A stretch of DNA of 64,000 nt, from positions 62,001-126,000 of the forward strand of contig CALIMH010000004.1 of assembly GCA_938028725.1 (NCBI GenBank), given 5' to 3'. Below the pieces are notes generated by a model, which worked only from the letters and a program-made list of their open reading frames with translations, searched no databases and was not told the origin of the DNA. A program made the translations under genes and the position numbers. Below are positions 4,562 to 14,983 of the stretch, piece after piece; positions within the stretch are counted from its first letter, which is position 1, and each line of letters opens with the position of its first letter. The stretch is from an uncultured Anaerolineae bacterium. Its GTDB lineage: Bacteria; Chloroflexota; Anaerolineae; J036; Brachytrichaceae.

Positions 4562-5644
4562 TCACAAAGGCAAGCCGGATTGCTGTACGTCCGCCCGCCA
4601 AAGCGCCAAAATCTTTTGGTCGCTGCGCGTGAGCGGGAGAGCGCGCGCGTCCTCGATGGAGGCCCATCGTGCCTCGGCGTAGCCATCGAGATGAAGTGAG
4701 TCGGGATTCAGCGCGCGCGCATGCCAGACGCGGCGCGTGACTTTGAAGTGGGTGAAGGCATGCGACACCTCGCCGAGTGGGCGGACGCTGGCCGGATCCA
4801 CACGTAAGCCAGCCCGGCGGTGAGCCAGCGCTGCGGCGTCCTCATCGGCGCACTGCGCCGAGGAGCTTTGCTCAGCACTGAGGAACTCCCAAAGCCCGCC
4901 TAGCAACCCGTGCGCCGGCCGACGGCACAACAGCGCACGGCCGACTCCATCGGTGAGGACCAGGCTGGGCACGACCACGCGCGACACCGTGCGCTTGGGG
5001 CGCGGACGCGGGTAGGCGGTTGGTGTGCCGCGTTGGAAGGCAGCGCAATCAGCTTGCAGCGGGCAATGCACGCATCGCGGCTGGCGAGCCGTACAAATCA
5101 GCGCGCCCAGCTCGATCAGCGCCTCGTTGAACGCGCCGGCGCGCTCCGTCGGCAGCACTGCCTGCGCCAGTGCTCGGAGCGCCCGATCAGCTTTCTCGTG
5201 GGCGAACAGGCGGCACAACACGCGTTTGCTGTTGCTGTCCAGCGCCAACACGGGCTGATTAAACGCGAGCGACGCGATGGCGCCGGCGATGTAGCTCCCG
5301 ACGCCCGGCAGAGCGCGCAGCGCCTCAGGGTTGGGGGGGATGCGCCCGCCGTGCTCGCGCAGCACCTGCTGGGCTGCGCAGTGCAGGTTGCGCGCGCGAG
5401 AGTAGTAGCCAAGCCCTTCCCAAGCTTTCATCACATCTTGCAAAGGGGCAGCAGCGAGGTCGGCCAATGTGGGGAAGCGCTCGATCCAGCGCTGGAAGTA
5501 AGGGATGACGGTTGCAACTTGGGTCTGCTGGAGCATCACCTCGCTCACCCACACGTGGTAGGGGTTGCGCGGCTCGCGTCGCCAGGGCAGGTCGCGCCGG
5601 TGCAGGTCAAACCAACGGAGCAGAGGCTGGGCCAGGTCGCTCAT
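4562..5644 (-). CDS. mutY: A/G-specific adenine DNA glycosylase MutY
   Basis: MutY removes adenine misincorporated opposite 8-oxoguanine. The protein is 360 residues, normal for the family. Seen are the catalytic Glu in VSEVMLQQTQV (E35), the helix-hairpin-helix LPGVGSYIAGAIASLAF, the catalytic Asp in ALDSNSKRVLCR (D136), and the 4Fe-4S loop C184-X6-C191-X2-C194-X5-C200. A C-terminal NUDIX-like 8-oxoG recognition domain follows. The frame is open far upstream, but ATG 5644 is the right start: it overlaps the photolyase stop in an ATGA junction, so the two repair genes are translationally coupled in a phr-mutY operon. Confidence 0.96.
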   Translation of the reverse strand: MSDLAQPLLRWFDLHRRDLPWRREPRNPYHVWVSEVMLQQTQVATVIPYFQRWIERFPTLADLAAAPLQDVMKAWEGLGYYSRARNLHCAAQQVLREHGGRIPPNPEALRALPGVGSYIAGAIASLAFNQPVLALDSNSKRVLCRLFAHEKADRALRALAQAVLPTERAGAFNEALIELGALICTARQPRCVHCPLQADCAAFQRGTPTAYPRPRPKRTVSRVVVPSLVLTDGVGRALLCRRPAHGLLGGLWEFLSAEQSSSAQCADEDAAALAHRRAGLRVDPASVRPLGEVSHAFTHFKVTRRVWHARALNPDSLHLDGYAEARWASIEDARALPLTRSDQKILALWRADVQQSGLPL

Positions 5645-7215
5645 CGTCCCTCCAGCAGCAAGCTCTCGGTCACCTCCATTTGTGCCACTTGTCCCTCGCG
5701 CTCGTCGGTGGCGAGCAATGGTGTGCAGGCGGGGTGTCTGTTGCGGTATTCCGCCAGGCGGCCTTCGCGAGCTGCCTGGGCGAGCAGCGCGCGGATCGGC
5801 ATGATCTGCTCTAGCCCAGCTTTGCGGCTGGCCTCGGCATCGACGATGGGCAGCGGGTAAGTGCGGCCTGGATGCACCCCATACCAGGTCTCCTCCATCG
5901 CGGTGAGTCGGTGTGGCTCGAAGGCGAGTGGCGCCGGCAAGTTGCGCAGCTCGGGCACGTACTTGTGGATGAAGCGCGCTTCCGGGTCGTGGTCGAAGCA
6001 CTGCTTCAGCGGGTTGTAGGCGCGCACGTAAGGGCGTGAGGGGTGAGTGATGCCTGCCTGCATTTGCCATTGCCAATGGTCAATGCAAGCGTCGCCGTCC
6101 AGCAGGTGTTTCATGAACCACTCCGCGCCGTGTCGCCAATCGATCATCAAGTTGATGGTGAGGAAGGTGGCCAGCATTGCGCGCATGCGGAAGTTCAGCA
6201 ATCCGCTCTGCACTAACGCACGCATCGAGGCATCTATCAAAGGGAAGCCGGTGCGCCCCTGCTGCCAAGCTGCCAGCAGCCTGGCGTCGGCATGCTCGTA
6301 GCGGCGGATCGTGTCGAAAGGTCGGTAGAGGTTAACAAATTCTGCCTCAGGGTAGAGCGCAAATTTCTGGATGAAGTGATCGCGCCATTGCAGGCGGCTC
6401 ACCCATGCCAACAAGCTCTTGCGCTCGCGTGGTGTGGCGTGCGCGTAGCGCCGGCGCGCCTCGTGCACGCATTCGCGCACGCTCACGCAGCCAAACTTCA
6501 GATAGGCCGATAGGCGGCTCGTGCCTTCCTCCTCCGCCAAGATCGGGCTGCTCATTTTGAAGCGATACTCGGCGACGCGGTGATCGAGGAAGTCGCGCAA
6601 CCGCGCACGAGCGGGTGTCTCTCCACCGGTGAGCGCGCTGCCGGGGCTGGGAGGTAGCCCCAAGTCTTTCAGCGTAGGGATATAGCCGTAGGCGCGGAGG
6701 CCAGGGCAAAGCTGGAGCTGTGGGGTGCGGATGTGCGCCGGCGCCGGGTGGGGGGGCTGGGCGTTGAAGGTGTGCCACGCCTTCGACCACGCAGCGCGCT
6801 CGTACTCGCCCTCGGTTTGCAGGTAGTAGCTCAGAAATGGTCGAAAGGTGCGTCTCATCCGCGCAAAGATGTGCGTCAGATTGCGGTCGCGCTGTTGGCC
6901 GCTCCACCGCTCGATGTCGGCTGAGTAATACACACCGTCCGCGCCGATGCACTCCACGAAGCGAGGCAACACCTCCACGGGATCGCCTTGCAGGAGGGTG
7001 AGGTAACTGCCGCGGGCGATCAAGTTGCGATCCAAGTCGGCCAGGGCTTCTAGCAAGAACTGCACGCGCCGGCTGCCTGTCTCCGTATGAGCGAGCAGGC
7101 TGCGATCCAAGATGAACAGGGGGATAACTTCCTCAGCGTCTTGGCAAGCATGGAACAGTGCAGCATGATCATGCACGCGCAGGTCGCGCCGAAACCAAAC
7201 CACCAAGCGGCGCAT
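5641..7215 (-). CDS. phr: Cryptochrome/DNA photolyase family protein
   Basis: A 524-residue flavoprotein of the photolyase/cryptochrome family. The N-terminal alpha/beta antenna domain starts RRLVVWFRRDLRVHDHAAL. The C-terminal FAD domain carries the signature stretch WHQ-like DHWQWQMQAGITHPSRPY and the GFPLIDASMRALVQSGLLN region that lines the FAD pocket. A class I CPD photolyase (light-driven repair of UV dimers) is the best call; a signalling cryptochrome cannot be excluded. There is a C-terminal tail of about 60 residues beyond the core. ATG 7215 is chosen because TATGCT ends 7 nt upstream; the in-frame codon at 7227 would lie inside that box. mutY follows with a 4-bp overlap. Confidence 0.93.
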   Translation of the reverse strand: MRRLVVWFRRDLRVHDHAALFHACQDAEEVIPLFILDRSLLAHTETGSRRVQFLLEALADLDRNLIARGSYLTLLQGDPVEVLPRFVECIGADGVYYSADIERWSGQQRDRNLTHIFARMRRTFRPFLSYYLQTEGEYERAAWSKAWHTFNAQPPHPAPAHIRTPQLQLCPGLRAYGYIPTLKDLGLPPSPGSALTGGETPARARLRDFLDHRVAEYRFKMSSPILAEEEGTSRLSAYLKFGCVSVRECVHEARRRYAHATPRERKSLLAWVSRLQWRDHFIQKFALYPEAEFVNLYRPFDTIRRYEHADARLLAAWQQGRTGFPLIDASMRALVQSGLLNFRMRAMLATFLTINLMIDWRHGAEWFMKHLLDGDACIDHWQWQMQAGITHPSRPYVRAYNPLKQCFDHDPEARFIHKYVPELRNLPAPLAFEPHRLTAMEETWYGVHPGRTYPLPIVDAEASRKAGLEQIMPIRALLAQAAREGRLAEYRNRHPACTPLLATDEREGQVAQMEVTESLLLEGR

Positions 7216-7288: not shown

Positions 7289-8731
7289 TTATGGCTGGGG
7301 ATTGCTCAACGACTGGAGAATCGGGAGGAAGACACGCCGCGAGAAGCCCTCGTAGGCATAGTTGTCTGAAAGCAACACGCCGCGTGTGCTGCCGCCGACG
7401 GCGTAAATGCGGTAGTCTATCCTGGCCACGCTCATGTTGCGCCATTCGCCCATGCGCTGCGCGGGCATCTCCACCGGCCACCAGCGATCAACGATGGGGT
7501 CGTAGCGTTCGTTGAAGCCGATGTAGCCCACAATGCCGCCGCCAATGGCGTACAGTTGGCCATCCATCTCCGCCACGCCCAGGCCACCGCGTGGCGAGAG
7601 CATGGGGGCGCATCGCGCCCAGGTCATTTGCTGAAGGTCGAGATACTCGCACGTGGCCAGCTCGCGTTGGCCGTCGTAGCCGCCAATAGCGAAGAGGCGC
7701 TCACCTAGCACGATCAGCGCGAGCTGACTGCGCGGCGTTGGCAACAGCGACAGGAGTTTCCACTTTCCTGAAGCAGGGTCGAAGCTCAACACGCGATCGT
7801 TCAGGCCGTTTGAGGTGCGGCCCCCTGCTACCACAATCTGCCCTTGAGCAGCGGCGACGGCGTGGCCGGCGAGCGGTATAGGCAGGTCTGCCAGCCGCAT
7901 CCAGGCTTGGCGCTCCAGGTCGAGTGCCTCGAATTGGCTTGAGACAAGCTGCCCTGCCAATGTGCCGCCGGGGACGTAAATGACGTTGCCGAGCGCTGCG
8001 GCGCCGGCGTTCATGGTTGGGGTGGGTTTGGCCGGCCCCTCGCGCCATGCGTCGGCTTGTGGCTCATACACCAACACTTCCCTGGCGGGTTGACCGTTCA
8101 CCTCGCCGCCGATGATGTAAAGCCGGCCGTTCACCACTGCTGTGGCAGCCCGCGCGCGCGCGCTGCGGATGGAGGCGCGCGCGAACCAGCGTGAGTCCTC
8201 CACGGCGACAGCTGTGGGCTCTGCAATGGTGGAGCTGCTGGTTAGCAAGTCGTCAAAGTTTGCGACTTGTGGCTGAGCGACAACCAATAGGCGCACGTCG
8301 CGCACGGCCCAAACCGTCAACGCAACGCTGAACGCCAAGATGCCCACCAGCGCCACACGCTGCCACACGGCTAGTGGCGCTGGCGGCAACGGATCGGGCG
8401 CTACTGGAACCGGCTGCGGCGGTGCAGCGCTCGCTGCCTCGGCGAGGGCTGTCTGCACTTCCTCGGAGCTTGGCCTGGGCGAGAATTCATCCTCCTGCGG
8501 CAGGGCGGGCGGCACCGCCTCTACCTTCACCCAGCCGTTGCGCACCGCGATAATGGTGACTTCGGTGCGGGACTGCGCACCCAGCTTGGCGAAAATGTTG
8601 CGCAAGTGCACCCGCACGGTGTTTGGGCTGACGAAAAGGCGCGCCCCGATCTCCTTGTTGGAAAGTCCTTCCGCCACCAAACGCACCACTTCGAGCTCGC
8701 GCTCGGTAAGCGGCTCGTTGAGTTCCGCCAT
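7289..8731 (-). CDS. LuxR-type HTH - transmembrane - Kelch beta-propeller protein
   Basis: A 480-residue fusion. Residues 7-66 are a complete LuxR/GerE DNA-binding domain (LTERELEVVRLVAEGLSNKE, then VSPNTVRVHLRNIFAKL). A Pro/Ala-rich linker follows (about 70-120), then one membrane helix (about 122-143). Residues 180-465 hold about five or six Kelch repeats, each with a paired-Gly LYIIGG-type strand (RLYIIGGEVNG, RLFAIGGYDGQ, QLYAIGGGI, RIYAVGGSTRG), forming a beta-propeller that should lie outside the membrane. The layout is that of a one-component membrane-tethered transcription factor whose external propeller senses a ligand or surface polymer. No receiver domain is present, so phosphorylation control is not expected. 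TATAAT lies 10 nt before the ATG. Targets are unknown. Confidence 0.88.
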   Translation of the reverse strand: MAELNEPLTERELEVVRLVAEGLSNKEIGARLFVSPNTVRVHLRNIFAKLGAQSRTEVTIIAVRNGWVKVEAVPPALPQEDEFSPRPSSEEVQTALAEAASAAPPQPVPVAPDPLPPAPLAVWQRVALVGILAFSVALTVWAVRDVRLLVVAQPQVANFDDLLTSSSTIAEPTAVAVEDSRWFARASIRSARARAATAVVNGRLYIIGGEVNGQPAREVLVYEPQADAWREGPAKPTPTMNAGAAALGNVIYVPGGTLAGQLVSSQFEALDLERQAWMRLADLPIPLAGHAVAAAQGQIVVAGGRTSNGLNDRVLSFDPASGKWKLLSLLPTPRSQLALIVLGERLFAIGGYDGQRELATCEYLDLQQMTWARCAPMLSPRGGLGVAEMDGQLYAIGGGIVGYIGFNERYDPIVDRWWPVEMPAQRMGEWRNMSVARIDYRIYAVGGSTRGVLLSDNYAYEGFSRRVFLPILQSLSNPQP

Positions 8732-8771: not shown

Positions 8772-9908
8772 TCAAGCTCGTGCGCGTTCCAGGCCTGCGC
8801 CGGTGCGTGCGCTGAGATGTTCGGCAACTGCGCGGCCGGCCTCAGTCAGCGCCAAGTGACCGTTCGTGCGTTGCACCAATCCGGACCGCTGGGCATGCGC
8901 GATCACGCGCTGGGCGAAGCGCGGCGTCCACCGCAGCTCGTTGCTGAGGTGCGCCACCTCCAGCTCGTGCTCCTCGCCGGGGAGCGTCTCGTGATAGCGC
9001 AGGTGGAGCAGCAGCGTCTCAGTGGCGAATTCCAGGCGCTGCCGACGAAGCTGACGGGCGCGCGCCAGCAGCCCGTGGCTGGGCGAGAAAAGCGCTGCTG
9101 TCACGAAAAGCAAGCCGCTGGCGCTCGCCATTGCGCCAGCTACGGAGGCATCGAGCGCCAAGGCGAGCACAAAGCCGATCACCGCCGACGCCACACCACA
9201 GCCTGCCGCCAACACGAGCATGCGGCGCAGGTCATCGGTGAGCAGATAGGCAGTGGCCGCTGGCACAATCATAAATGCCACCACCAAAATCGAGCCGACC
9301 GCCGTGAACGCTGCCACTGAAGTCACGGCCACCACTGCCATCAGCGCGTAGTGCAGCAGGCGCGGGGAAAAGCCGCTCGTTGCTGCCAGCGCAGGGTCGA
9401 AGGTGGCTAGCTGCAGCTCCTTGTAGAGCAGTCCCACAAACAGCGCGTTGAGCAACGCCAGCCCGCCCGTCACCCACAACGACTGTGGGCCGAGGTGATG
9501 CTCGCCAACCCACAATGACTCAAACGGCGCAAACTCGATGTTGCCGAAGAGCACGGCGTCGGTGTCGAGGTGAACATTCGCGTAGTAGCGCGAGATCGTC
9601 AGCACGCCCAACGCAAACATAGCCGGGAATACGATGCCAATGGCAGACTCACCGGCCACGTTGCTCACGTCCTGCAACAACTCGATCAGCCCCACGGTGA
9701 GGATGGCGACCGAGGCGGCGCCGAGCAGTCCCAACGCGAAGTTTGGGCCTTTGGCGAGGAAGTAACCCAGCACGATGCCGGGCAAGATCGCGTGGCTGAT
9801 CGCGTCGGAGAGCATGGCCAGCCGTCGCAGCATCAGGAAGCTGCCTGGCAGAGCGCACGCGATCGCTGTCAGCACGCCGGTGAGCAACACTACCAGCAGG
9901 GCGCTCAT
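8772..9908 (-). CDS. Metal ABC transporter permease with C-terminal DtxR-like winged helix
   Basis: Residues 1-280 are an ABC-3 family permease (ZnuB/MntB/TroC-D) with about eight to nine membrane helices and the typical RRLAMLSDAISHAILPGIVL start. The core family ends near residue 285. Here about 90 further residues follow. Residues 293-372 read as a winged-helix DNA-binding domain, with an HLSNELRWTPRFAQRVIAHA recognition-helix region, then SGLVQ and the wing GHLALTEAGRAVAEHL. This resembles the N-terminal domain of DtxR/MntR regulators. The dimerisation and metal-site domain of DtxR is absent. Chlamydia YtgCR is a known permease-repressor fusion that is cut to free the repressor, a close analogy. 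The start overlaps the preceding permease stop (ATGA). It is the last gene of the importer operon. Confidence 0.88.
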   Translation of the reverse strand: MSALLVVLLTGVLTAIACALPGSFLMLRRLAMLSDAISHAILPGIVLGYFLAKGPNFALGLLGAASVAILTVGLIELLQDVSNVAGESAIGIVFPAMFALGVLTISRYYANVHLDTDAVLFGNIEFAPFESLWVGEHHLGPQSLWVTGGLALLNALFVGLLYKELQLATFDPALAATSGFSPRLLHYALMAVVAVTSVAAFTAVGSILVVAFMIVPAATAYLLTDDLRRMLVLAAGCGVASAVIGFVLALALDASVAGAMASASGLLFVTAALFSPSHGLLARARQLRRQRLEFATETLLLHLRYHETLPGEEHELEVAHLSNELRWTPRFAQRVIAHAQRSGLVQRTNGHLALTEAGRAVAEHLSARTGAGLERARA

Positions 9909-10783
9909 CGCTCGGCCTCACCCTTTGCCGCGCGCCTAGCAAGCCAGGCGCGCACCCTCCGCACCACCAGCGACACAACAGTGATCGCGCTCAACACCAG
10001 GACCACCACCGGGCCGGTGGGAATGCCGCGATCGCTGGCGCTGAGCCACGCCCCCATCACCCCAGAGATGGCTCCGAACGCTGCTGCTAGCCAGACCATG
10101 AGGTGCAGTCGGTCCGTCCACTGTCGCGCTGCCACGGCCGGCGCGATCAGCAACGACGCCATCAGCACCACGCCCACCGCCTGTAAGCCGACCACCACTG
10201 TGATCACAATCAGCGTGGTGAGCAGCAGGCTGAGGGCAGTGGTGTTCCACCCCAGTGAGGCAGCGAAAGGCGCATCGAAGGCAAGCAGGGCGAACTCCTT
10301 GTAACCCAGCACCAGCACGATCAGCACGCCGGCGCTGAGCAATGCCATCAGCTCCACCTGATCGGCAGTGAGCGCGGCGGCTTGGCCCAACAAGAAGCGC
10401 TCCAGCCCCACAGCCCGCGCCTGTGGCTGGCGGTTGATGAACGTGAGCAGCACCACGCCGACCGCAAAAGACACACTCAGCACGATCCCCAACGCGCTGT
10501 CCTCTTTGATGCGCGTGGCGCGGCTGAGGTATATCAGCGCTGCCGTGCCCAGCCAACCGCTGAGGGCGGCGCCGGCCAGCAGCACAGGCAGTGCGCGCTG
10601 GCCGGTGAGCAAGTAGGCCAGCGCAATGCCAGGCAGCGCTGCGTGCGCCAATGTATCGCCCAGCAAGCCCTGGCGGCGCAGCACGGCGAAGCATCCCAGC
10701 GCGCCGCTCACTGCGCCCAGTAGTGCACTGCCCAGCACGACGTTGCGCATGGTGTAGTCTGCGAGAAGGGAAAGCCAAGCCAT
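9905..10783 (-). CDS. Metal ABC transporter permease (ABC-3 family)
   Basis: A 292-residue integral membrane permease of the ZnuB/MntB/TroC family, with about eight or nine hydrophobic segments and the family motif RRQGLLGDTLAHAALPGIAL near residues 36-55. It forms the translocation channel with the second permease encoded immediately downstream, powered by the ATPase encoded upstream. It begins 9 bp after the ATPase stop and overlaps the next permease by 4 bp. This permease has the normal length and no C-terminal extension. The metal (Mn, Zn or Fe) is not determined by the permease itself. Confidence 0.93.
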   Translation of the reverse strand: MAWLSLLADYTMRNVVLGSALLGAVSGALGCFAVLRRQGLLGDTLAHAALPGIALAYLLTGQRALPVLLAGAALSGWLGTAALIYLSRATRIKEDSALGIVLSVSFAVGVVLLTFINRQPQARAVGLERFLLGQAAALTADQVELMALLSAGVLIVLVLGYKEFALLAFDAPFAASLGWNTTALSLLLTTLIVITVVVGLQAVGVVLMASLLIAPAVAARQWTDRLHLMVWLAAAFGAISGVMGAWLSASDRGIPTGPVVVLVLSAITVVSLVVRRVRAWLARRAAKGEAER

Positions 10784-10792
10784 CAGCTCGGT

Positions 10793-11605
10793 TCAGCTAA
10801 TCGGCGCACTCGTTTGGTGCTTTTCCAGCTCCAACCACTCGAAGTGGCGGATGGAAGCAGTCATAGCACCGCCGTAGGTGCGGCGCAGGTTGGCGATCGT
10901 GAAAACCTGGCGGAAGTCGCCACAGGCGATCAGCCGCACATTCAGGAGCACCAGCCAGTCGAAGTACTCCGGTGCGGAGTCCAGGTCATGGTGCACTACC
11001 ACGACCGTTTTGCCTTGATCGCGCAGCGCGCGCAGCAGCTCCACAATGGCCTTCTCGGTGACGGCATCCACACCGACAAAGGGCTCGTCCAAGAAATACA
11101 CATCCGCCTGTTGGGCCAACGCACGAGCAAGGAATACGCGCTGCTGTTGGCCACCACTAAGCTGGCCGATTTGGCGGTCGGCGAAAGCGGTCATGCCCAC
11201 TGCGTCGAGGCACTGCATGGCCAGCTTGCGTTCGCGCGGGCCAGGCCGCTTGAGCCACCCCAACTGCCCATATGTGCCCATCATCACCACGTCGAGCGCA
11301 GTAGCTGGGAAGTCCCAGTCCACGCTGCTGCGTTGGGGCACATAGCCGATGCGGCGGCGTTGGCGCGCTACTGGCTGGCCGAAGATACTCACCTGGCCAG
11401 CAGCGAGCGGCACCAGGCCGAGCAACGCTTTCATCAGCGTGCTTTTGCCGGCGCCGTTTGGGCCGATGATCGCGGCCAAGCGACCCGGCGGGATGCGCAA
11501 GTCCACGTCTTGAACAGCCGGACGGTCGCGGTAGGTGACCGTGACGTCGTCTGCGACAATGGCAAACCCGTGGTCGCTGTGGCTTTGTGCACAGTCGTCC
11601 TTCAT
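10793..11605 (-). CDS. Metal ABC transporter ATP-binding protein
   Basis: A 270-residue ABC ATPase. Walker A is GPNGAGKST (about 48-56), the Q-loop region is [13 protein letters not shown], the signature is [17 protein letters not shown] and Walker B is [12 protein letters not shown], followed by the switch histidine in VVVVHHDL. The RSSVDWDFP segment is characteristic of Mn/Fe/Zn chelate importers (MntB/TroB/ZnuC group). It sits at the cytoplasmic face and energises the two permeases. ATG 11605 overlaps the stop of the binding-protein gene by 4 bp, and both permeases follow closely. All four parts of the importer are therefore in one tight operon. Confidence 0.95.
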
Positions 11606-12561
11606 GGCGCGAGGTCTGGTGTTGAAGACAGCGCAGCGACAATGGCGTTCACGTTGTGCATCACCATGCCGGCGTGCGTGTCAGCAGCGCTGCCAGGAGC
11701 ACCAAGCGCGTCTGAGAAGAGTACGTCGCCGAATTGTACCTGCCAGCCCTGAGCAAGCGTAGCTTGTCGCACAGCTTCTAGCGTCGCAGCAGAAACGGAA
11801 GTCTCGACGAAGATCGCTGGCACGCGCTGCTCAGCTAGAAAACTGGCGAGCTGTTGCACGTCGCGGGTGCCCACTTCAGCAGCGGTGTTGATGCCTTGTA
11901 GCGCACGTACCTCCAAGCCATAGCGTATGCCAAAGTAGCTGAAGGCGTCGTGGGCGGTGACCAGTCGGCGCGCCTGAGGGGGGATGCGCGCCAGCTCTGT
12001 GCGCGTCCACTCGTCGAGCTGAGCTAGGTCAGCGAGGTATGCCACGAGGCGACGCTGGTATATGTCCGTGCCTTCTGGGTCAAGGCGGCTCAACGCATCG
12101 GCGACGCCGCGCGCCGCCATCCCCCATAGCTCTGGGTCGAACCATATGTGCGGGTCGGGCATACCATCCTGTTTGACCAGCAATGCGTCGGGTGGGACTG
12201 CGGAAGCGATGGCGTAGGTGTGCTTGCCGGCACGACGCATGTTCTCGAACAGATCAGCCATCCGACCTTCTAGGTGCAAGCCGTTGTAGAACACCGCATC
12301 CGCTTCATCCAAGCGGATCACGTCACCGATGCTGGGCTTGTAAAGGTGCGGATCCACGCCTGGCCCCATGAGTGCCTGCACTGTCACTCGCTCCCCACCG
12401 ACAGATCGCACCAGGTCGGCGACAAGGGTGGTGGTGGCGACGAGGCGCAGCCGGCCTGCTGAATCCGCTGGGGCTGGTGGGCGTGACGCCACGCTGCAGC
12501 CGGCAACCAGCAGTACCCATGCGCATAGCACACGGCTGAGACGAGAAGCGATCAGCGCCAT
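11602..12561 (-). CDS. TroA/ZnuA-type metal-binding lipoprotein of ABC importer
   Basis: A 319-residue cluster A-I solute-binding protein. The signal peptide ends in the lipobox LVAGC (lipidated C22), so it is tethered outside the membrane. Four probable metal ligands line up with the TroA pattern: H72 (DPHLYKPS), H138 (DPHIWFDP), H204 ([10 protein letters not shown]) and D284 (LFSDALG). Three His plus one Asp fits TroA-like Mn/Zn binding rather than the Glu-containing ZnuA/PsaA sets. The His-rich loop typical of ZnuA is missing. It is the first gene of the operon, directly downstream of a DtxR-type palindrome, which favours Mn or Fe-linked control. Confidence 0.94.
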
Positions 12562-12586: not shown

Positions 12587-12603
12587 TTTTAGGTCAGGCT
12601 AAA
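12587..12603 (-). promoter_or_regulatory. DtxR/MntR-type palindromic operator in importer promoter
   Basis: The plus-strand sequence TTTTAGGTCAGGCTAAA contains inverted arms TTTAG/CTAAA and matches the general DtxR/IdeR box pattern TTAGGTnAGnCTAA at almost every defined position. It lies 26-42 nt before the binding-protein ATG and overlaps or abuts a TAAAAT -10 candidate (12579-12584 or 12586-12591, minus strand). A metal-bound repressor here would block transcription when the metal is plentiful. The repressor could be a separate DtxR-family protein or the winged helix fused to the operon's own permease. Confidence 0.7.
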
Positions 12604-12695: not shown

Positions 12696-13733
12696 TCAGT
12701 CTCGCCAGTTGCCGGTCTGCCACTTCTTCAGGAACACGTCGGCCTCCTCTGGCGTGCGCACTAAGTCGAAGCCGGTGTCAACGAAGGGCGGGTACTGCTT
12801 CTTGTTCACCACAATGTCGTACAGGATGCCGACTGCGTCATAGCCCCAGCCGTAGAACTTTTGGCCGATCAGGGCGTGTACTAAGCCCTCTTTGAGCAGC
12901 TTCAGCTCGTTCTCCAGAATGTCCCAGGCGACTACCTTCATGCCTGCCTTTGCTGCGGCCTGGAACTTGGGCATGGCGTTGATGTCGCCGAACAGCGGCC
13001 AGGCGCCGGCCATGAAGTATCCGGCCAAGTCGGGGTTGGCGGTCAGGCGGTTCTCCACGACCTCGATGCCCTTCTGGATGTCGTCGTTGCATGGGTCAGT
13101 GGCTACCCACTTCAAGCCGGCTGGGTCGGCCACCTCGCGGAAGGCGCGGATGCGCGCCTCCAAGTTCTGGGCGCCGGGCACGCCGGTGAGGATGGCGTAG
13201 GTCTTGTTGGGGCTGTCCTTCAGCAGCTCCACCATGATCTCAGCGCCCTTGCGGGCAGCTGCCTCATTGTCCAGGCTGTAGAAGGTGATGCGCTTGGAGT
13301 TGGGCGAGTCGGAGTCCCAGGTGATCACGGGGATGCCGGCGTCCACAGCTCGGTCGATCACTGGCTTCAGTGCGTCGGGGTCGTTGCACGAGATGCCCAT
13401 GCCGTCCACCTTGCGGGCGATGGCGGCGTCGAGCAGCTCGGCTTGCTTTTGCGCGTCAGCGGACTCTGGGCCGATCCACTCCACCGTGATGCCCAACTCC
13501 TTGGCTTTGTCCATGGCGCCGCGGCGGGCCACGTCGAACACGGGGTTGTTCACTGCCTTGGGTGACCAGACAAAGGTCAACGGTTTCTTGCCTGTCTCCG
13601 GTGTGGTGACGGGTTGCTGGGCAGAGGGCTGAGCTGCGGGTGGGGGCGCTGCACAGCTTGCCAGCGCTACTGCGCCGGCGCCGATGCCTGCTGCGCGTAG
13701 AAAGTTGCGGCGTGAAATGCGACTGTTGTTCAT
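12696..13733 (-). CDS. Sugar ABC transporter substrate-binding lipoprotein (RbsB-like)
   Basis: A 345-residue periplasmic-binding-protein I family member (ribose/galactose/autoinducer-2 group). The N terminus has a twin-arginine motif SRRNFLRAAG and a lipobox ALASC, so it is probably exported folded by Tat and lipidated at about C27. A Pro/Gln/Thr linker follows, then the two-lobed domain with VNNPVFDVARRGAMDKAKEL, DGMGISCNDPDAL and PVITWDSDSPNSKRI. These Asp/Asn-rich segments contact sugar hydroxyls in the family. It follows the permease gene by 72 bp and ends at a strong terminator. The exact ligand is unknown. No ATPase gene is adjacent. Confidence 0.92.
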   Translation of the reverse strand: MNNSRISRRNFLRAAGIGAGAVALASCAAPPPAAQPSAQQPVTTPETGKKPLTFVWSPKAVNNPVFDVARRGAMDKAKELGITVEWIGPESADAQKQAELLDAAIARKVDGMGISCNDPDALKPVIDRAVDAGIPVITWDSDSPNSKRITFYSLDNEAAARKGAEIMVELLKDSPNKTYAILTGVPGAQNLEARIRAFREVADPAGLKWVATDPCNDDIQKGIEVVENRLTANPDLAGYFMAGAWPLFGDINAMPKFQAAAKAGMKVVAWDILENELKLLKEGLVHALIGQKFYGWGYDAVGILYDIVVNKKQYPPFVDTGFDLVRTPEEADVFLKKWQTGNWRD

Positions 13734-13805: not shown

Positions 13806-14837
13806 TCAGCTTCGGCGTTGGCGCAAGCGGTCAATCAGCGCTGAGAGCAGGATGATGCCGCCGGTGAAGGCTTGTTGCCAGTAGCTCTCCACGCGCAGCA
13901 GCACCAGCGCGTTGTTCAGCACGCCGATCAGGATGGCGCCGAGCACCGCGCCCAGCACTGTGCCGCGCCCGCCGGAGAGGCTCACGCCGCCGATCACCGC
14001 CGAGGCGATCACGAACAGCTCGTAGCCCAGCGCCTGGGTGGGTGCAGAGACGCCCAGCCGCGCCACCACCAGTACGCCGCCGACGCCGGCCAGCGCACCA
14101 GAAAGCACGTACGTCAGCAGCTTCACGCGATCCACCGGCAAGCCAGTCAACAACGCGCTGGTCTCGTTGCCGCCGATCGCGTAGATGTACGTCCCCCACA
14201 CGTGATACGACAAGAAGAGGGCCACGACGAGCGCCAGAACAATGAGGAAGACCACCGGCGTCGGCACAGGGCCGATGTAGCCTTGCCCAAGCGCGACAAA
14301 CTCGATGGGGAAGTTGCGCACTGTCTGACCGCTGGTGAGGCCAACGACAATGCCCCGCACCACACCCAGCATGCCCAACGTGGCGATGAACGGCACCAAC
14401 CTAAGCCGCACCACCAGCAGACCGTTGATCAGCCCAACCATCGCGCCGGCCAGCACGCCCAACGTGAAGGCAATGGCTGGCGGCAGCCCGAAGCTCGGCA
14501 ACTGGTACGCCGTTGTCCCCCCCAAGCTCACCGCTATAGCGGCCACCAGCCCGCTGAAGGCCATGGTTGAGCCGATGGAAAGGTCAATGCCGCCGGCGAG
14601 GATCACCAGCGTGACGCCGAGCGCCGCAATGGCGATGTCGGCGTTGTTGCGCAGAATGTTGAAGATGTTATCCGAGGTGAGGAACGCGCTGCTGCTTTGC
14701 GAGAGCACCGCGCTGAGCACCAGCAGCACCAGGATGATGCTGGTCTCCGGCCGCTGGAGCAGCCGGCGCAGCAGCGAGGGTTGCCGTGCGGCGGTTTTGG
14801 TTGCTTTGCTCTTTTCCACTGCGAGATTCGTGCTCAT
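13806..14837 (-). CDS. Sugar ABC transporter permease (RbsC-like)
   Basis: A 343-residue permease of the BPD_transp_2 family (RbsC/XylH/AraH), with about eight to ten membrane helices. It has the family stretches LGVTLVILAGGIDLSIGS (about 100-118), NGLLVVRLRLVPFIATLGML and GGVSLSGGRGTVLGAVLGA. It should pair with the RbsB-like lipoprotein encoded next. I place the start at ATG 14837 (MSTNLAVEKSKATK). An upstream in-frame codon at 14966 would add about 43 residues unlike the family and would cover the promoter. The usual RbsA ATPase gene is missing on both sides, so the energiser must come from elsewhere. Confidence 0.92.
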   Translation of the reverse strand: MSTNLAVEKSKATKTAARQPSLLRRLLQRPETSIILVLLVLSAVLSQSSSAFLTSDNIFNILRNNADIAIAALGVTLVILAGGIDLSIGSTMAFSGLVAAIAVSLGGTTAYQLPSFGLPPAIAFTLGVLAGAMVGLINGLLVVRLRLVPFIATLGMLGVVRGIVVGLTSGQTVRNFPIEFVALGQGYIGPVPTPVVFLIVLALVVALFLSYHVWGTYIYAIGGNETSALLTGLPVDRVKLLTYVLSGALAGVGGVLVVARLGVSAPTQALGYELFVIASAVIGGVSLSGGRGTVLGAVLGAILIGVLNNALVLLRVESYWQQAFTGGIILLSALIDRLRQRRS

Positions 14838-14877
14838 GGTCTGGAATGGGAGGGCGCATTGGTGTCGCGTTGCGTTG

Positions 14878-14905
14878 ATGATAGCCGATGTAAGGGCCTT
14901 CGCAA
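14878..14905 (-). promoter_or_regulatory. Promoter of sugar ABC operon (TTGCGA-16-TATCAT)
   Basis: On the minus strand TTGCGA (14905-14900) and TATCAT (14883-14878) are 16 nt apart, about 40 nt upstream of the permease ATG. This region separates it from the divergent DUF4397 gene. Confidence 0.45.
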
Positions 14906-14983
14906 GCGCTCGCAGCCGCCGCTGGGGGATGACATAATGGCATGGAGCAACCCAGCGGCCAATCAATCATCCGTGTTGTTGTG

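Follow-up and report, generated by a model that had tools for sequence, protein, structure and literature searches.

A winged-helix tail, likely of DtxR descent, on the second permease of a metal importer: a possible cytosolic accessory domain

The second permease of an ABC-type metal importer encoded in the window (the whole stretch of 64,000 nucleotides analysed here) was predicted to end in a winged helix. In our judgment there is about an even chance that this tail, derived from DtxR/MntR and probably metal-responsive, has been repurposed as a cytosolic domain that does not bind DNA and that regulates or stabilises the importer. Fold, conservation, distribution, the separate regulators and the loss of the DNA-reading signature were computed; metal binding, contact with the ATPase and control of transport are what we infer.

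The importer operon and the tail of its second permease

Permease 2 (open reading frame 8772-9908, minus strand, 378 amino acids) lies at the end of a four-gene minus-strand operon, in which it follows the genes for a substrate-binding protein, an ATPase and permease 1. A substrate-binding protein, an ATPase and two ABC-3 permeases in one operon define a TroA/MntABC-type (ABC-3) importer, and the gene order was unchanged in relatives. The relatives of permease 2 in the Protein Data Bank (PDB) were 7kyp/7kyo, a manganese importer, and 9oko, ZnuB, and its nearest named relative was from Candidatus Roseilinea (67% identical). The substrate-binding protein matched the AztC/MntC models of NCBIfam below their cut-off. 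The features of the operon are as follows.

8775-9065, minus strand: C-terminal winged-helix tail of permease 2 (tail 2), residues 282-378, from AlphaFold, Foldseek and conservation
8886-8924, minus strand: third (recognition-type) helix of tail 2, residues 329-341, lacking the DtxR signature S-x-T-x-M-x-K-K in a column comparison
8928-9005, minus strand: conserved polar set H302, H306, E315, H320 and E324, with W327, at the end of helix 1, in helix 2 and in the turn
9087-9899, minus strand: ABC-3 transmembrane permease domain of permease 2, residues 4-274 (Pfam PF00950, E 1e-47)
9905-10783, minus strand: permease 1, 292 amino acids, without a tail in the window (PF00950)
10793-11605, minus strand: ABC ATPase of the metal importer, from profile matches
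11602-12561, minus strand: metal-binding substrate-binding protein of the ZnuA/TroA type (PF01297, E 8e-74)
12588-12603, no strand assigned: candidate DtxR-type operator TTTAGGTCAGGCTAAA, one mismatch from TTTAGG-N4-CCTAAA

The AlphaFold model of tail 2, for which the input was 55 sequences with the window sequence first, had a mean pLDDT of 90.5 and the order helix-helix-helix-strand-strand-helix, and this model, with the structural matches given below, confirms the C-terminal winged helix of permease 2. Its initial helix led straight into the winged helix with no visible flexible linker. A Foldseek comparison with the PDB placed IdeR at the top, followed by OhrR, IdeR, DtxR and MntR (best E 1.9e-3), with an rmsd of about 1.8 Å across about 69 residues; a sequence search of tail 2 against the PDB found nothing. 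Given that the Pfam DtxR model (PF01325) matched none of the 55 tail-2 relatives, the case for calling the tail "DtxR-like" comes from its structure and from the comparison of profiles. HemN_C, which is also a winged helix, was the best Pfam match of the window tail and the commonest among the 55.

Tail 2 stops at residue 378, without the metal-binding and dimerisation half of DtxR (domain 2), and a domain 2 profile gave no significant match among 206 tails except in one partner permease, that of locus L159. An initial annotation of this DNA had described a permease continuing into a C-terminal winged helix from which this half is absent, and had proposed structure prediction and comparison with DtxR, MntR and YtgR. 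The PF00950 match over residues 4-274 with the well-modelled domain at 282-378, the IdeR, OhrR, DtxR and MntR matches, and the lack of any domain 2 profile match in tail 2 bear out these points.

Descent, spread and conserved residues of the tails

A homologous winged-helix tail (tail 1) was found on permease 1 in 63 of 79 related loci and was absent in the other 16. Its predicted model was again a winged helix (pLDDT 92.9), with MntR as the best PDB matches. In three loci (L081, L091 and L103) the tail of permease 1 is instead of the permease-2 type, which suggests domain exchange between the two permeases.

Profile alignment with hhalign indicated that tails 1 and 2 are homologous (P 96.6, E 5e-10). 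Tail 1 aligned with the DtxR winged helix at P 96 and E 5e-9, compared with 4e-5 for HemN_C and 2e-5 for MarR, and the profile of tail 2 alone gave a near tie between DtxR (4e-7) and HemN_C (8e-7). Permease 1 of L159 (Thermomicrobiales; 4652-6001, plus strand) keeps decayed versions of both parts of DtxR in its tail, the winged helix and domain 2; the domain 2 match had E 2e-8 among the 206 tails and 2e-9 in a smaller search. The permease-2 tail of this locus lacks most of the His/Glu set described below. When permease 1 of L159 was used to search the whole phylum, no further alignment among the matches listed reached DtxR domain 2, and a domain 2 remnant suggested by eye in permease 1 of L092 was not significant. 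Because tail 1 matches DtxR, the two tails are homologous and L159 keeps a decayed domain 2, both tails are likely to descend from a permease-DtxR fusion, with tail 2 the more diverged.

Tail 2 recurs in about 15 genomes of this family, with a similarly placed stop codon and 20 invariant tail residues, and the tail is therefore not a frameshift or assembly artefact. Median dN/dS was 0.27 in tail 2 and 0.16 in the permease part, a sign of purifying selection. A search of the class (298 genomes) recovered about 50 permease-2 orthologues with the tail, and the shorter ABC-3 matches in that search look like paralogues. The best 80 loci of a contig-wide scan came from Chloroflexota, Poribacteria, Bacteroidota, Gemmatimonadota, Calditrichota, Planctomycetota, Armatimonadota and others, and they include cultured marine flavobacteria (Winogradskyella, Aquimarina and others); tail 2 was present in all 80, a figure that is biased upward by a query containing the tail. 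The class search and the multi-phylum loci together rule out a tail peculiar to the source organism.

Among 32 free DtxR proteins of relatives, the recognition-helix columns were occupied by S in 28, T in 22, M in 30 and, at each of two positions, K or R in 31. At these columns the permease-2 tails kept the hydrophobic core positions alone, and S-x-T-x-M-x-K-K was absent. By net charge the third helix of the tails could not be told from that of DtxR (+1.5 in tail 2 versus +1.3 in DtxR).

The tails have conserved polar columns of their own. In tail 2 these were H302 (54 of 55 sequences), H306 (53 of 55), E315 (53 of 54) and H320 (45 of 55), with W327 invariant (55 of 55); position 324 was H in 43 of 55 and E in 5 of 55, and is E in the window. 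The conserved polar residues of tail 1 were H31, H36 and H38 (numbering of the L185 fragment). At the same threshold the free DtxR winged helices had no column of conserved His, Glu, Asp or Cys. H302/H306 and H320/H-E324 each sit four residues apart (i, i+4) along helices, as is common in metal sites, and their side chains may converge in space. The conserved His residues could instead be structural or touch another protein.

The operator, separate regulators and alternative readings

The DtxR-type palindrome that the initial annotation had placed in the operon's own promoter is indeed there, as TTTAGGTCAGGCTAAA at 12588-12603. Across the 2.28 Mb genome no other site comes within one mismatch of TTTAGG-N4-CCTAAA, and the box lies 27-42 bp upstream of the start codon of the substrate-binding protein at 12561; a sigma-70 promoter consensus was not found at the box. 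With two mismatches allowed, boxes occurred near the start of the substrate-binding protein in 41 of 115 loci, for which about 4 hits were expected from background.

Three complete free-standing DtxR proteins are encoded in the genome. In the gene for one of them, on contig C10 (hence C10), the box TTTAGTTTGGCTTAAA (two mismatches) stands between a promoter-like TTGACA/TACAAT pair and the ATG, directly ahead of the latter; two-mismatch matches are common by chance, and this box is supporting only. A relative of the same family, G020, has a C10 orthologue (64% identical) divergently adjacent to the orthologous operon, with boxes near the start of the substrate-binding protein, and complete DtxR genes were detected within or next to about 60 operon loci. 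Given the C10 box, the G020 orthologue beside the operon and the DtxR genes near relatives' operons, a separate DtxR is the economical repressor; most likely the C10 protein would repress the operon at 12588-12603.

Near the operon in two loci, long DtxR-like proteins (L078:3971-5002 and L080:7065-8168) match the DtxR profile twice in their C-terminal part. This part perhaps consists of twin FeoA domains such as those described for Porphyromonas PgMntR (PMC4805248).

The main rival to a metal-responsive accessory domain is a purely structural or assembly role, in which the winged helix would hold the ATPases or the permease pair and neither sense metal nor bind DNA. We regard this as possible although unlikely. 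Paired tails on two permeases would suit a scaffold, the conserved W327, T355 and G358 look structural, and winged helices often mediate protein contacts. The His/Glu columns, however, show more conservation than a simple scaffold would call for, and loci in which permease 1 has no tail (16 of 79) indicate that pairing is not essential. An independent origin of the winged helix, without kinship to DtxR and for example from a HemN_C- or MarR-type source, is in our view very improbable. HemN_C is the best Pfam match of the window tail and nearly as close to tail 2 as is DtxR, and MarR-type structures also rank high in Foldseek, but tail 1, homologous to tail 2, clearly prefers DtxR, permease 1 of L159 has both DtxR domains, and IdeR, DtxR and MntR dominate the structural matches.

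Less likely than the structural role is a repressor of the YtgCR type, with a tail that, either cleaved off or while still at the membrane, would shut down its own operon at 12588-12603; we consider it improbable. A winged helix of DtxR derivation, a DtxR-type box in the operon promoter and a third helix still positively charged enough to make DNA binding conceivable speak for such a role, as do the permease-repressor fusions reported in 11 phyla and the cleavage of YtgR in Chlamydia (PMC5599777). Against it, tail 2 has no domain 2 for metal-dependent dimerisation and has lost the recognition-helix signature, a continuous helix stands where a cleavage linker would be expected, the partner permease often bears a tail of its own, and of the three free DtxRs one (C10) has a box at its own gene and is represented in G020 by an orthologue next to the operon. 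The initial annotation had offered tail 2 as the operon's repressor, freed by proteolysis, and this proposal fares poorly given the free DtxRs, the lost signature and the missing domain 2 and linker. It had also named a free-standing DtxR that explains the box as counting against it, and this is largely what was found (three DtxRs, the C10 box and the G020 neighbour). As for the YtgCR-type arrangement it described, a permease with a DtxR-type winged helix stands, but the metal-coordinating domain of DtxR is not retained.

Proposed role, known systems and surrounding genes

For the metal-responsive accessory domain that we favour, the following course may be envisaged. A DtxR/MntR winged helix would have been fused to an ABC-3 metal permease, would have lost its metal-binding and dimerisation half and its DNA-reading residues, and would have been retained as a cytosolic domain of the importer. 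With both permeases tailed, as in most relatives, two winged helices would lie beside two ATPases. The His/Glu set (H302, H306, E315, H320 and E/H324, and three His in tail 1) probably binds the imported metal, and the tail, sensing cytosolic metal, would slow or stabilise the pump. Transcription of the operon would be handled apart, by a free-standing DtxR, most likely C10, at 12588-12603. The more general proposal, that across many phyla a DNA-binding metal-repressor domain became paired cytosolic metal sensors on both permeases, with feedback on transport via a non-DtxR metal site, we hold tentatively, at somewhat short of an even chance.

The proposed logic is analogous to that of the MetNI and ModBC importers, in which a cytosolic regulatory domain reads the internal substrate level (trans-inhibition); in those importers it is the ATPase that bears the domain, which has a fold other than the winged helix, whereas here the permease bears it. 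PsaBC/ZnuBC importers of known structure (7kyo, 7kyp, 9oko) belong to the same permease family, but their matching PDB chains are 260-290 amino acids long and have no such tail. The DtxR, IdeR and MntR repressors share the winged-helix fold and are the best structural matches of the tail, which differs from them in having neither domain 2 nor the recognition-helix signature and in being joined to a membrane permease.

Permease-repressor fusions are known from Chlamydia and are reported in 11 phyla (PMC5599777). The DtxR metal-coordinating residues of YtgR are reported to be conserved, and YtgR represses after cleavage from YtgC (PMC5599777; cleavage also in PMC7755916). Chlamydia YtgC-YtgR (CT069) resembles the present protein in that a gene of a metal-uptake operon encodes an ABC-type metal permease whose C-terminus is a DtxR-related domain; here, by contrast, the winged helix occurs alone, other residues are conserved, both permeases are often tailed and separate DtxR genes lie nearby. 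In the open-access literature searched, no paper was found that describes a tail on each of the two permeases, domain 2 loss with the winged helix kept, or the His/Glu set. New here are the multi-phylum tail, the tails of partner permeases and the His/Glu sets in both tails.

Fusions of a permease with a DtxR domain are usually interpreted, via Chlamydia YtgCR, as cleavable repressors. The present large group of fusions has neither the sensing and dimerisation half nor the DNA-reading residues, coexists with true DtxR genes, and bears the conserved His/Glu residues on one permease or on both. Metal sensing by the tail would mean that these importers are under post-translational feedback; should the tail not sense metal, the fusion by itself makes a poor case for a repressor. 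In both events the annotation of permease-DtxR fusion genes is corrected, and the cultured marine flavobacteria with the tail make the question testable.

Two further gene sets flank the operon. The protein encoded at 7289-8731 (minus strand) has a DNA-binding domain of the LuxR type at residues 7-62 together with a hydrophobic stretch and Kelch repeats, a second regulator-membrane-sensor layout next to the metal operon. Upstream on the same strand are sugar-type ABC genes at 12696-13733 and 13806-14966 (both minus strand); the binding protein of this pair matches Peripla_BP_4, and the sugar-type permease was assigned by eye.
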